Below, piece by piece: positions 3,305-35,714 of a stretch of 50,824 bases of DNA; positions within the stretch are counted from its first letter, which is position 1; each line of letters opens with the position of its first letter. The notes beneath the pieces are model-generated. The model ran no database searches, had not been told where the DNA came from, and was given only the letters and a program-made list of their open reading frames with translations. Made by a program: the position numbers and the translations under genes. Origin of the DNA: Candidatus Heimdallarchaeota archaeon (lineage in GTDB: Archaea; Asgardarchaeota; Heimdallarchaeia; JABLTI01); assembly GCA_019056785.1 (NCBI GenBank), contig DXJV01000078.1, forward strand, positions 1 to 50,824. Direction: 5' to 3'.

Positions 3305-4315
3305 ATGTCTCGAGAGCATCTCTTACCTTCAGAGCAAAAACGCTCGTTCATTGTTAAATCAGACGACTTTGAAATTACCTCCTACGGCAAGCGTCCTGAG
3401 GAGCGAACCGTCCCAGAGCTGCTTCGCCTTGGCGTTATTAATGTTGATAAACATCCTAACCCCACGAGTCAGGAAATTGTTGCCTATATCAAGAAGATTT
3501 TCGGTCTTACGAAGGCGGGCCATTCTGGTACCCTTGACCCTGCCGTTAGTGGCGTTCTCCCTGTTGCTCTCGAAGATGCCACGAAAATCACCAAGGCTTT
3601 GCTTACTGCCGGCAAAGAGTATGTCTGTATTATGCATTTGCATTCTGAAGCCAAAGCAAGTGCTATTAAGAAGGTCATGCAAGAATTCGTCGGTGAGATC
3701 TATCAGAAACCGCCTGTAAAGTCTAGTGTAAAGCGTGTCCTTCGTTCCCGGACGATTTACTATCTTGATGTTCTTGAGATCGACGGGCAAGATGTCCTCT
3801 TCCTTGTTGGGTGTGAAAAAGGAACATATATTCGCAAGCTCTGTCACGATATTGGTCTGGTGTTAGGTACCGGTGCCCATATGAAAGAGCTTCGCCGGAC
3901 AAAATCCGGTCCTTTTAAAGAAGATGAAACCCTTTCTTCTCTAACCCGTATTTATGATGCCTATGCCACTTATACGGAATCTGGCGACGAGACTGAGCTG
4001 CGTAAGGTTGTGCTCCCGATGGAGCGCGGATTAATTCATTTACCTAAGATTATCATTCGTGATAATGCCATTGGTGCTATTTGTCATGGTGCGAGTCTTG
4101 CTATTCCTGGTGTGTTAAAGCTTCATGATTCGATTGTGAAAGGCGACCTTGTCTTACTTGAGAGTCTGAAAGGAGAAGCTGTCGCCCTTGCTATTGCTGA
4201 GTTAAATGCCACCGAAATCGTTGCTGCCAGTCATGGTCTTGCCGCTCGAACAACTCGTGTGTTAATGGATCGGGCAGTATATCCGAAAGTGTGGAAGGAA
4301 TCGACCAAGCGATGA
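3305..4315 (+). CDS. cbf5: tRNA/rRNA pseudouridine synthase Cbf5 (dyskerin homologue)
   Basis: 336 residues from the ATG at 3305. It is the catalytic subunit of H/ACA ribonucleoprotein particles, converting uridine to pseudouridine in rRNA with Nop10, Gar1 and L7Ae; archaeal forms also act on tRNA U55. The TruB-type catalytic loop with the nucleophilic Asp is visible as GHSGTLDPAVSGVLP. The GTYIRKLCHDIG motif follows, and a PUA RNA-binding domain occupies roughly the last 90 residues. Length is typical. An in-frame ATG at 3266 would add 13 hydrophobic residues and lies too close to the predicted promoter. The stop overlaps the next ATG as ATGA, so the methyltransferase is probably translationally coupled. 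In several Crenarchaeota cbf5 itself has an mRNA intron; this copy is continuous. Confidence 0.95.
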   Translation: MSREHLLPSEQKRSFIVKSDDFEITSYGKRPEERTVPELLRLGVINVDKHPNPTSQEIVAYIKKIFGLTKAGHSGTLDPAVSGVLPVALEDATKITKALLTAGKEYVCIMHLHSEAKASAIKKVMQEFVGEIYQKPPVKSSVKRVLRSRTIYYLDVLEIDGQDVLFLVGCEKGTYIRKLCHDIGLVLGTGAHMKELRRTKSGPFKEDETLSSLTRIYDAYATYTESGDETELRKVVLPMERGLIHLPKIIIRDNAIGAICHGASLAIPGVLKLHDSIVKGDLVLLESLKGEAVALAIAELNATEIVAASHGLAARTTRVLMDRAVYPKVWKESTKR

Positions 4316-32782: not shown

Positions 32783-34248
32783 TTGGATGAAGATCTTTAC
32801 CAGAAAATTTTCGAGTTAGCTGCCAAAGAACAGGTCAGCTATGTAGACGTCCGAGATGAAGACTCCCTCTATACTGTTATAGAAGTTGTAGACGGGAAAG
32901 TTCAGAGGTCTTCGGTCGGGTCTGAGGCAGGTATTGGTATTCGCCTTCTTAAAGACGGTGCGTTTGGCTTTGCCTACGGCTCAAAAAAGAGTTTCAAAGA
33001 GGTTCTAGCAATGGCGTTAGAAAGCCAAATTGTCGCTAAAAAGATGGCCAAAAGTGATATCACTTTGGCTGAAGTGAAACCAATCAAGGACAAGGTAGTT
33101 ATCTCGCAAAAAAAACCCGCACAAGATGTTTCCTTCGAAGAGAAGATGAAACTTTTACTCGAGGTTGACAAGGAACTGAAAGACAAGGATAAGAAAATAA
33201 AATCCGCCCGGAGTTATTACTTCGACGTTTTGCGCCGACAAACTCTTGCAACTTCAGAAGGAACGCTGATTTATGAAGAACGACCATATACTTATCTCTA
33301 TGTCATACCAACGGCCAAAAAAGGCACTGATACCAATCAAGGTTTGGGCCGTGCCGGACATATCGGTGGTTTCGAACTCTTTGATGAAGTTGATGTGAAA
33401 GCACGAGCAATTGAAACACGCGAAAGAACCATCAAAGGTTTAGAGGCTAAGCGAGTGAAACCCGGAAAATATCCTGTCGTGATGGATGGCACCTTGAATT
33501 TTCTGTTTGCCCATGAAGCATTTCAAGAGTGGGTTAATTGAACTTCTCATCTTGTTTTGCATGGAGAGCAGCAGGACATTCAAGCGAAGGCGATTTCCTC
33601 CGAACGGCGGGCGTCTTCAAAGGTAAATTGGGAAAACGTCTTAGTCAACCCTTTGTAAACCTAATCGATGATGGTACGCTCGAGTATGTCCCCGGATATC
33701 CCACAAGGACATTTGGTTTCATGCGCTATGATGATGAGGGCACTCCTGTCCAGCGAACTGAAATCATTAAAAACGGTGTTCTTAGGACTTATCTCACCGA
33801 TCGTGCAACAGCTGCACATTTCAATTTAGCACCAACAGGCAATTGCCGTGCTGAGTTCTACTCCAGTTATCCCATAGTTAGGATGCGAAATACTTTCCTT
33901 AAGGCTACTAGTGGCTCTGCACTTTCTGAGGAGGAAATTCTCTCTTTGGTGAAAGAGGGCTTGCTTCTCAAATATGGTGGTGGTGGACAAGTTGACCCTA
34001 TCCGAGGTACCTTTAATTTTGGTGTTGGAGAAGTATATGAAATTCACAATGGAGAAATAGGCGAACTGCGAAAAGCTACTACAATCTCCGGCAATACTTT
34101 AGATACTCTGAGCAAGATTATTGGCCTTTCTAATAAAATGGCCGACCCCTCAGCGAATGTCGGTTTCTGTGGTAAAGATGGTCAGCGTGCTCCCACTGGC
34201 ACAGGTGCAGGATGGATGGCTGTCAAATTAATGACAATTGGAGGTTAA
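32783..34248 (+). CDS. tldD: Metalloprotease TldD, interrupted by a predicted 50-nt mRNA intron
   Basis: Read as join(32783-33516, 33567-34248), this gives 471 residues, the normal TldD length (about 480). TldD pairs with TldE; the heterodimer is a zinc protease that trims peptides. Without splicing the frame ends at the TGA at 33539-33541, right inside the zinc motif, and the rest continues in another frame. Joining at the bulge-helix-bulge borders gives FAHEAAGHSSEGDF, the canonical HExxxH plus EGD signature. The remaining parts match the family (FKGKLG, DDGT, DDEGTP). The start is TTG behind GGTGGT. tldE follows 5 bp after the stop, behind GGAGGT. The unspliced message also offers a TTGA stop-start overlap at 33538-33541. 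Assembly error is the main alternative. Confidence 0.85.
33517..33566 (+). other. Predicted bulge-helix-bulge pre-mRNA intron in tldD
   Basis: Pairings: outer helix TGC (33508-33510) with GCA (33568-33570), central helix CCAT (33511-33514) with ATGG (33561-33564), inner helix GCA (33518-33520) with TGC (33558-33560), continued after a 3x3 T loop by CAAGA (33524-33528) with TCTTG (33550-33554). The bulges are GAA (33515-33517) and AGA (33565-33567), both on the required strands. Cleavage after the second base of each gives a 50-nt intron (not a multiple of three) whose removal restores the frame and the HEAAGH motif. The ends match the substrate of the archaeal tRNA splicing endonuclease. Confidence 0.8.
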
Positions 34249-34253
34249 AAAGA

Positions 34254-35714
34254 ATGGCAAAAGAACTTACATTAGATGAGGCACTCAAATTTTCATTGAA
34301 GTTTGCAGAAAAGAAAGGTGCAACAGAGTTTGAAGCCTATGCCGTCTCCTCTCGGGAGATTTCAATTGGGCTTGAAAAGAGCATCCCACAAACAACTACA
34401 GGCATTTCAGAGGGGCTCTCAATTCGGGTGGTGGCGAACAAAAATATTGGCTTTGCTTTTACGAAAACATTGACAAAGGCCCGCCTTGAATCAACGATCA
34501 AAGCCGCGCTTCAAAATGCACGGTCCAAAGGACCTGACCCTGATTACCATTCTCTCCCTCAACCCGCCTTACCGCCACCGGTTAAATTCACATTTGACGA
34601 AGAGCTACTTACAGTTACTGCTGATTCACTTGCAGATGGCTTGGAACATGTCATTAAAAAAATCAATGCGGTAAAATCACTCAAATTTTTGCAAGGACAA
34701 TTGAGTTTAACAGTAATCAAAGACCATTTAATCAATTCAAATGGTGTTGATATTAGCTCACAAGGTGGTGGCATTGGGGGCTTTACAGCGGCAATTACGA
34801 CAAAAGGCCTAATCCCCAATTATTCGTATGGCATTCATGGCTCTCCAACTCTGAAAGGATTTAATTATGACATTTTAGCCCAAGAAACGATAAAACAGAC
34901 ACTTCGCGCAGCAGGACCAAAGACCATGAATTTCAATAAGGAAGTCCCAATCATCCTCGAACCGGAAGCCTCTTTTGGCCTTCTTGGAGGGTTGTTTTCT
35001 TTGTTGTTCACTCAACTCCAAGGAAACAATGTCGATCGTGGTGCAACTCCTTATTCAGATCAAGTTGGGAACCAGATTGCCGTGGAAAATTTCACTTTGA
35101 TTGATAATGGTTTGAACACTGAAAAAATCAATCGGAGCCTTTTTGATGCTGAAGGAACGCCTCAACAAAAGACAGTTCTTATTGAGAAAGGCGTGCTACA
35201 AACATACCTCTTGGACAGTTATTACGGCCATAAACTTGGTCTCGAGTCAAATGGTAAAAGCACACGAATGGGCATTTTTGGCTTTGGAGGTGACCCAGTG
35301 AAAACCTATCCTTCAATAAGTCAAACCGTCCCAGAAGTTGCACCGGGTGATTCATCAAAAGAAGAGATGTTCGCCGAGACGAAAGAAGGGTTCCTTCTCC
35401 GCTCACTTATGGGTATGCATATGTCCGACTCGAGTTCCGGACGCTTCTCAGTGACGGGCTTTGGTTGGTACATTAAAAACGGAGAAATCCAATATCCCGT
35501 CCAGGGTATAAATATTTCTGGTTTTCTCCCTGAGTTGCTCAAAAACATTGACCTTATTTCCAAAGAGCGGGAAGCCTTACTTTTGGCAGACAGTCCATAT
35601 ATTCGTTTCGCCTTAGTTCCTGTGACTGCAAAGAAGTTTGACTTTAAGACCCGTTTTGGTCTAACTCTCCTCAAAATCATCTCTGTTCTTACTGGAAAAC
35701 ATCCCATGATATGA
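34254..35714 (+). CDS. tldE: TldE/PmbA, partner of TldD
   Basis: 486 residues from the ATG at 34254, 8 nt after GGAGGT that overlaps the tldD stop. TldE is the non-catalytic subunit of the TldD-TldE protease. Conserved PmbA features are seen: GIHGSPTLKGFNYD in the middle, DNGLNTEKINRSLFDAEGTPQQKT, and the KSTRMGIFGFGGD region. No HExxxH is present, as expected. No intron is needed; the frame is continuous. It is co-transcribed with tldD and both should be made in equal amounts only if the tldD intron is removed. Confidence 0.9.
   Translation: MAKELTLDEALKFSLKFAEKKGATEFEAYAVSSREISIGLEKSIPQTTTGISEGLSIRVVANKNIGFAFTKTLTKARLESTIKAALQNARSKGPDPDYHSLPQPALPPPVKFTFDEELLTVTADSLADGLEHVIKKINAVKSLKFLQGQLSLTVIKDHLINSNGVDISSQGGGIGGFTAAITTKGLIPNYSYGIHGSPTLKGFNYDILAQETIKQTLRAAGPKTMNFNKEVPIILEPEASFGLLGGLFSLLFTQLQGNNVDRGATPYSDQVGNQIAVENFTLIDNGLNTEKINRSLFDAEGTPQQKTVLIEKGVLQTYLLDSYYGHKLGLESNGKSTRMGIFGFGGDPVKTYPSISQTVPEVAPGDSSKEEMFAETKEGFLLRSLMGMHMSDSSSGRFSVTGFGWYIKNGEIQYPVQGINISGFLPELLKNIDLISKEREALLLADSPYIRFALVPVTAKKFDFKTRFGLTLLKIISVLTGKHPMI

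Follow-up and report, generated by a model that had tools for sequence, protein, structure and literature searches.

Archaeal tRNA introns share the bulge-helix-bulge (BHB) logic and the enzymes of the case reported here, and differ from it in their tRNA context. BHBs have also been described in messenger RNAs, one of them in the euryarchaeal Haloferax volcanii. In that species EndA cutting of the HVO_1309 mRNA was shown in vivo and in vitro, according to the available part of a 2020 study which also names the cbf5 mRNA as the only additional archaeal BHB intron besides its own 5' UTR case (PMC7714728). A 2016 review, as far as its accessible text goes, restricts archaeal pre-mRNA introns to cbf5 (PMC4810243), and the available sections of PMC2738675 present putative introns in other protein genes as unconfirmed predictions. 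The same sections link the cbf5 introns of Desulfurococcales and Sulfolobales to hetero-oligomeric EndA.

Here we analyse tldD within a 50,824-nucleotide stretch of DNA (the window, meaning the whole stretch) from a Candidatus Heimdallarchaeota archaeon. Like the cbf5 introns, its putative intron is short, lies in coding sequence and has a BHB with predicted cuts between bulge bases two and three (available part of PMC2738675); unlike them, it occupies another gene in another phylum and is in phase 2 rather than 1. At 50 nt it exceeds the 16-44 nt of the introns tabulated in the accessible text of PMC2738675, and its BHB is canonical, whereas most of those newly described there are unconventional. 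The cbf5 intron splits a catalytic Asp codon after the first letter (PMC2738675, same part), and the tldD intron splits a Glu codon. The BHB of HVO_1309, by contrast, sits in a 5' UTR (available part of PMC7714728) and not in coding sequence. That an acidic active-site codon is divided in both cbf5 (Asp) and tldD (Glu of the zinc motif) is our own comparison. The cbf5 gene of the window itself (3491-3832, plus strand; TruB_N family) has an uninterrupted 350-codon frame. In the open-licence PMC literature searched, neither a tldD intron nor any mRNA intron of the BHB type from an Asgard archaeon came to light; the first-pass annotation had called the tldD intron probably new. We put at roughly 90% the probability that positions 33517-33566 of the tldD coding region are a BHB intron of the archaeal type, by far the best of the readings considered.

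The tldD gene and its predicted intron

The tldD gene is interrupted by exactly 50 nt, as had been noted on first reading. They separate the last letter of the HExxGH Glu codon from its first two and contain an in-frame stop (TGA, 33539-33541). The protein database searched lists the gene as two proteins of 252 and 236 aa. The first-pass annotation had proposed that cuts behind base two of both bulges restore frame and motif, and they do: excision of the 50 nt gives a single frame of 471 aa plus stop (472 codons, as annotated, with the stop counted) bearing the motif FAHEAAGHSSEGDF. The Glu of this motif (codon 245) is presumably the catalytic base of TldD proteins. The joined protein has the HExxxH motif and all three PmbA_TldD domains, each above the Pfam cut-off, and the third of these crosses the junction, scoring 177.0 bits in the joined protein vs 167.4 in ORF2 alone. 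With the NCBIfam archaeal TldD equivalog NF040952, residues 11-470 of the joined protein score 300.1 bits, below the curated cut-off of 635. Coordinates are collected in Table 1.

We scanned all removals of 20-89 nt starting at 33496-33560 for an open frame with HExxGH. Only eight restore it, and all are of 50 nt. Since the insert has AGCA on either border, five of these registers (33517-33566 to 33521-33570) yield one and the same product, and three more (starts 33522-33524) retain frame and motif with one residue altered. The register 33517-33566 is singled out by the BHB rule only.

The uninterrupted gene downstream of tldD we take, from its position, to be TldE/PmbA. Five more TldD/PmbA-family matches were found in the genome (two on contig C2 and one each on C84, C49 and C25), with open frames of 460-500 codons and 22-30% identity to the TldD of the window.

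Table 1. Features of the tldD locus, in window coordinates.
Feature	Position	Strand	Remarks
tldD ORF1	32783-33541	+	252 aa, C-terminal ...FAHEAFQEWVN; Pfam PmbA_TldD_1st and _2nd
tldD ORF2	33538-34248	+	236 aa; gene-finder-style call, TTG start overlaps TGA; C-terminal PmbA/TldD domain
tldD exon 1	32783-33516	+	TTG start, 244 codons plus GA of Glu245; Pfam PmbA_TldD_1st and _2nd
Predicted tldD intron, 50 nt	33517-33566	+	phase 2, in Glu codon of HExxGH
tldD exon 2	33567-34248	+	last letter of Glu245, then AAGHSSEGDF... up to stop; Pfam PmbA_TldD_3rd
Downstream PmbA/TldD-family partner gene, uninterrupted	34254-35714	+	Pfam PmbA_TldD_1st and _3rd
Outer helix, exon 1 strand	33493-33510	+	16 pairs with 33568-33584; T33508 bulged out
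BHB central helix, 5' strand CCAT	33511-33514	+	computed free fold
5' bulge GAA	33515-33517	+	unpaired in fold; predicted cut after 33516 (rule: available part of PMC2738675)
Inner helix GCA	33518-33520	+	paired with 33558-33560, computed fold
Distal intron stem-loop	33524-33554	+	33524-33528/33550-33554 and 33530-33533/33546-33549, computed fold
Inner helix TGC	33558-33560	+	computed fold
BHB central helix, 3' strand ATGG	33561-33564	+	computed free fold
3' bulge AGA	33565-33567	+	unpaired in fold; predicted cut after 33566 (rule: available part of PMC2738675)
Outer helix, exon 2 strand	33568-33584	+	computed free fold

Predicted bulge-helix-bulge fold

Folded without constraints, 33490-33590 has as its minimum-energy structure a canonical BHB together with an exon-exon helix and an intron stem-loop. 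At the exon-intron borders this computed fold has a 4-bp helix with a 3-nt bulge on either side. The CCAT/ATGG helix with bulges GAA and AGA, first read from the letters alone, reappears in the free fold. The short TGC/GCA helices proposed on either side fared differently: the inner one is present, and the outer one is far longer than claimed, with 16 pairs. With flanks of 25, 50, 100, 150 and 250 nt alike, the canonical BHB appears in the minimum-energy fold, and the nine core pairs checked persist with probabilities of 0.72-0.96.

This arrangement is rare by chance. When the insert was shuffled between its real flanks, the BHB appeared in the minimum-energy fold in 0 of 5000 cases, and all ten core pairs were Watson-Crick, in any of the five registers, in 25 of 200,000 shuffles (146 with G-U permitted). 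Synonymous variants of the flanks gave the BHB in 18 of 2000 folds. Without a fixed pair list, an exon-exon duplex as good as that of the window arose in 18/5000 synonymous variants and an equally good capped hairpin in 8/5000. The window's 16 of 17 outer pairs were matched by 1 of 20,000 synonymous variants, a count that is biased since the pairs were read off the window itself. Taken as a whole, the segment has a modest folding z-score (-1.93; 6/200 shuffles equally good) and is unusual in its geometry, not in its overall stability.

When 20 distinct flanks of relatives, all from plus-strand loci (17 orthologues and 3 paralogues), were grafted around the tldD intron, the central helix formed in 0/20. 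The window pairs 16 of the 17 outer positions, orthologues 8-11 and paralogues 5-8, a comparison biased by taking the positions from the fold of the window. Among 17 relatives' flanks from plus-strand loci, two near-identical ones (L019 and L021), which have no intron, form a stronger exon-exon duplex (-20.6) than the window does (-17.5).

There is no sign of a group I or group II ribozyme core: across the window every Rfam family stayed below its gathering score, and 50 nt is too short for a self-splicing intron of either group.

Interrupted and uninterrupted tldD genes among relatives

The zinc motif is uninterrupted in 8/8 other genomes of the same genus, which carry intronless tldD alleles at the same site. 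A search of the truncated ORF1 against 5.8 billion proteins returned five, P0001-P0005. P0001 is the window's own protein cluster (10 members, 2 contigs). P0002, a sister-lineage protein that is 89% identical and also 252 aa long, lies on another contig (137,020 bases) and ends HEAFQERCN vs HEAFQEWVN in the window; at the protein level, its frame is truncated as in the window and its insert is altered. P0003 and P0004 are pieces ending upstream of the motif, and P0005 is a 400-aa uninterrupted partial protein with 77% identity across 56% of the ORF1 query. The ORF2 search gave P0006 and three other proteins. Of 226 exon-2 residues, P0006 and the window have all but 3 in common; both also begin with the insert-derived MNFSSCFAWR, so that at the protein level they share the 3' part of the insert. 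All close relatives found (89% identity and above) are interrupted. The best full-length uninterrupted match to the joined TldD is 76% identical, and none above that figure was found among the 7997 candidates, the best by shared words, that were scored.

The exon 1 tree groups the window with P0002 (support 1.0) within the uninterrupted genus-level rows, which fits one gain; this single event would fall on the branch leading to the two. It is most likely that the intron was gained before these lineages split and was kept in a working gene. With up to 3 mismatches, the 31-nt core of the intron occurs once in nine genus genomes, in the window only. Of 227 phylum genomes, 16 gave a match to a 261-nt query across the insert, and in the 15 besides this one the match lay outside the insert except for the insert's first four letters.

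Several short TldD frames in the few relatives inspected were considered and rejected as further cases: L016, L020, L034, L126, L127 and L128 are cut off where their contigs end, L125 enters masked sequence, L124, a paralogue in G005, has a frameshift and no insert, and in L015 the one in-frame stop lies far downstream. As observations in their own right, L124 (902-2429) lies in two overlapping frames, a contrast to tldD of the window, and the stop of L015 (~2698-2700, tldD of same-genus genome G001) stands where the window has a Glu codon, in an otherwise intact frame; we attribute it to sequencing error or recent mutation.

Coding constraint and alternative explanations

We assessed constraint in 52 rows uninterrupted at the motif, 34 of them at genus level (8 loci together with 26 proteins whose identity is 68% or higher, a few genes being present twice) and 18 of another family; L015 carries its later in-frame stop, and a few rows end at contig ends. 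The window keeps all 95 invariant columns (35/35 in exon 1, 60/60 in exon 2), P0002 keeps 35/35 in exon 1 and P0006 60/60 in exon 2. A smaller, earlier row set gave 0/53 and 3/81 departures for the window, and 0-1 and 0-2 when uninterrupted genus rows were omitted in turn; in this set, read on the plus strand only, 9 of 27 rows yielded no ORF over the motif, namely 8 minus-strand loci (two from the genus), which the later comparisons include, and L034, whose contig stops short of it. The dN/dS ratio was uninformative because synonymous sites are saturated. It looks as if tldD is under selection on both sides of the insert, and therefore its message is probably rejoined.

The retained columns also tell against an account in which the 50-nt insertion broke tldD, leaving a pseudogene or a gene read in two pieces with a coincidental BHB. 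Such an account, which we regard as improbable, draws on the frame being interrupted without splicing, on a possible TTG start for ORF2 and on the five other TldD/PmbA-family matches, which might cover a loss. However, the window and P0002 differ at 24 of 245 exon-1 residues and yet at 1 of 69 genus-invariant ones, so divergence has spared these sites, even though the common truncation probably predates it. In addition, two pieces would part the residues of the zinc motif, and the rarity of the fold by chance would be left as an accident.

A second possibility, to which we give still less credence, is that tldD is unspliced and that programmed frameshifting or stop bypass produces a TldD with ~17 extra residues. 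Since 50 nt equal 17 codons minus one nucleotide, a single frameshift could connect the two frames if the stop were bypassed as well. The extra residues would nevertheless fall inside HExxGH, which is ungapped in 52/52 rows (50 HEAAGH, 2 HEAVGH), and an RNA fold with splice-site geometry would go unexplained. Least plausible of all is that the insert arose as an error of sequencing or assembly. The window does make up an entire contig of an assembly that is only 82.5% complete (102 contigs), and the longest P0001 contig (50,924 bases) is nearly window-sized, so that P0001 alone is weak support for the insert, but P0002 has a changed insert on its separate 137,020-base contig, P0006 has the 3' part of the insert in a record with 3 exon-2 differences, and a canonical BHB at the exact border is not expected of an error.

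Splicing enzymes and tRNA introns of the genome

The BHB intron reading calls for a host with EndA and RtcB, and both were found. The genome has two EndA-family genes. One retains the His of the GIDHSPY stretch, at a position that differs between 3p1z (His), its best match, and 3ajv (Ala); the former we take to be the Aeropyrum EndA enzyme and the latter its mutant. The other EndA lacks the catalytic His, and it is likely, from this pattern, that the two proteins form an alpha-beta enzyme. Two EndA-family matches are present in six of the eight same-genus relatives, one match being a fragment (G005), and a single match in the other two, whose genomes are 64% and 69% complete. Genes for RtcB and archease are also present.

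Using ARAGORN with introns allowed, we found 26 tRNA genes in 27 loci, 13 of them with introns, one doubtful. A simple scan recovered all three canonical BHB helices at the expected place in tRNA-Leu(CAA) and tRNA-Ser(CGA), and not in the other 11 of 13. An origin of the tldD intron from a tRNA intron was rejected, as none of the 12 compared (the doubtful L069 being omitted) resembled it beyond shuffles (best case 42/300 as good). Target duplication was likewise rejected, the likeness between the exon 1 tail and the intron being no better than that of shuffles (905/2000 as good). By eye, L069 (1461-1568; G000:C11, match 129924-129985) reads as a tRNA-Asn(GTT) that appears to have a ~30-nt intron around the D-loop, whereas the ARAGORN label is Thr(cgt), with an intron of 14 nt. 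A 137-nt tRNA-family match in L066 (1501-1637; G000:C65:7019-7155) has no ARAGORN call even with introns up to 200 nt, and possibly contains an unusual or multiple intron.

Survey for further candidate mRNA introns

We surveyed the window and 40 further stretches (850,324 bases including small overlaps, ~29% of the genome) for canonical-BHB-like structures with an intron of 15-109 nt whose excision joins two otherwise closed frames of at least 70 codons. Among the 45 sequence-level candidates (31 + 14, some overlapping), tldD alone showed the central helix with open bulges when folded with no fewer than two of three flank lengths. A few others (e.g. L093, L096 and L103) had a central helix with paired bulges, or formed it at one flank length only.

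Conclusions

The first-pass annotation had read the tldD insert as a BHB mRNA intron, and frame, motif, fold, relatives, exon constraint and enzyme genes all support it. In the mechanism we propose, the tldD pre-mRNA would fold into a canonical BHB, the likely two-subunit EndA would cut after the second base of each bulge, and RtcB would join the exons, making the divided Glu codon of HExxGH whole again. Left unspliced, the RNA would yield no more than a 252-aa fragment that lacks the second His of the zinc motif, so active TldD would depend on splicing. Placement in an active-site codon may, we infer, shield the intron from sloppy deletion.

A wider proposal goes further, and we consider it reasonably probable: that Asgard archaea splice a protein-coding mRNA with tRNA-splicing machinery, the tldD intron having been gained in one Heimdallarchaeota lineage and fixed in a catalytic Glu codon independently of the intron in the catalytic Asp codon of crenarchaeal cbf5, yet in like manner. 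On this view, BHB mRNA introns would be something that can recur wherever a lineage has alpha-beta EndA, and they would be kept at sites where imprecise loss kills the enzyme; TldD activity would be gated by splicing.

Within the open-licence PMC literature searched, the tldD intron would be the first BHB mRNA intron in Asgard archaea, the archaeal group closest to eukaryotes. It illustrates how intron-split genes would be miscalled as two fragments. If the reading holds, tldD would be the second archaeal gene with a coding-sequence intron beside cbf5, and as an independent gain with close intronless neighbours it would make the birth and retention of protein-removed mRNA introns testable.
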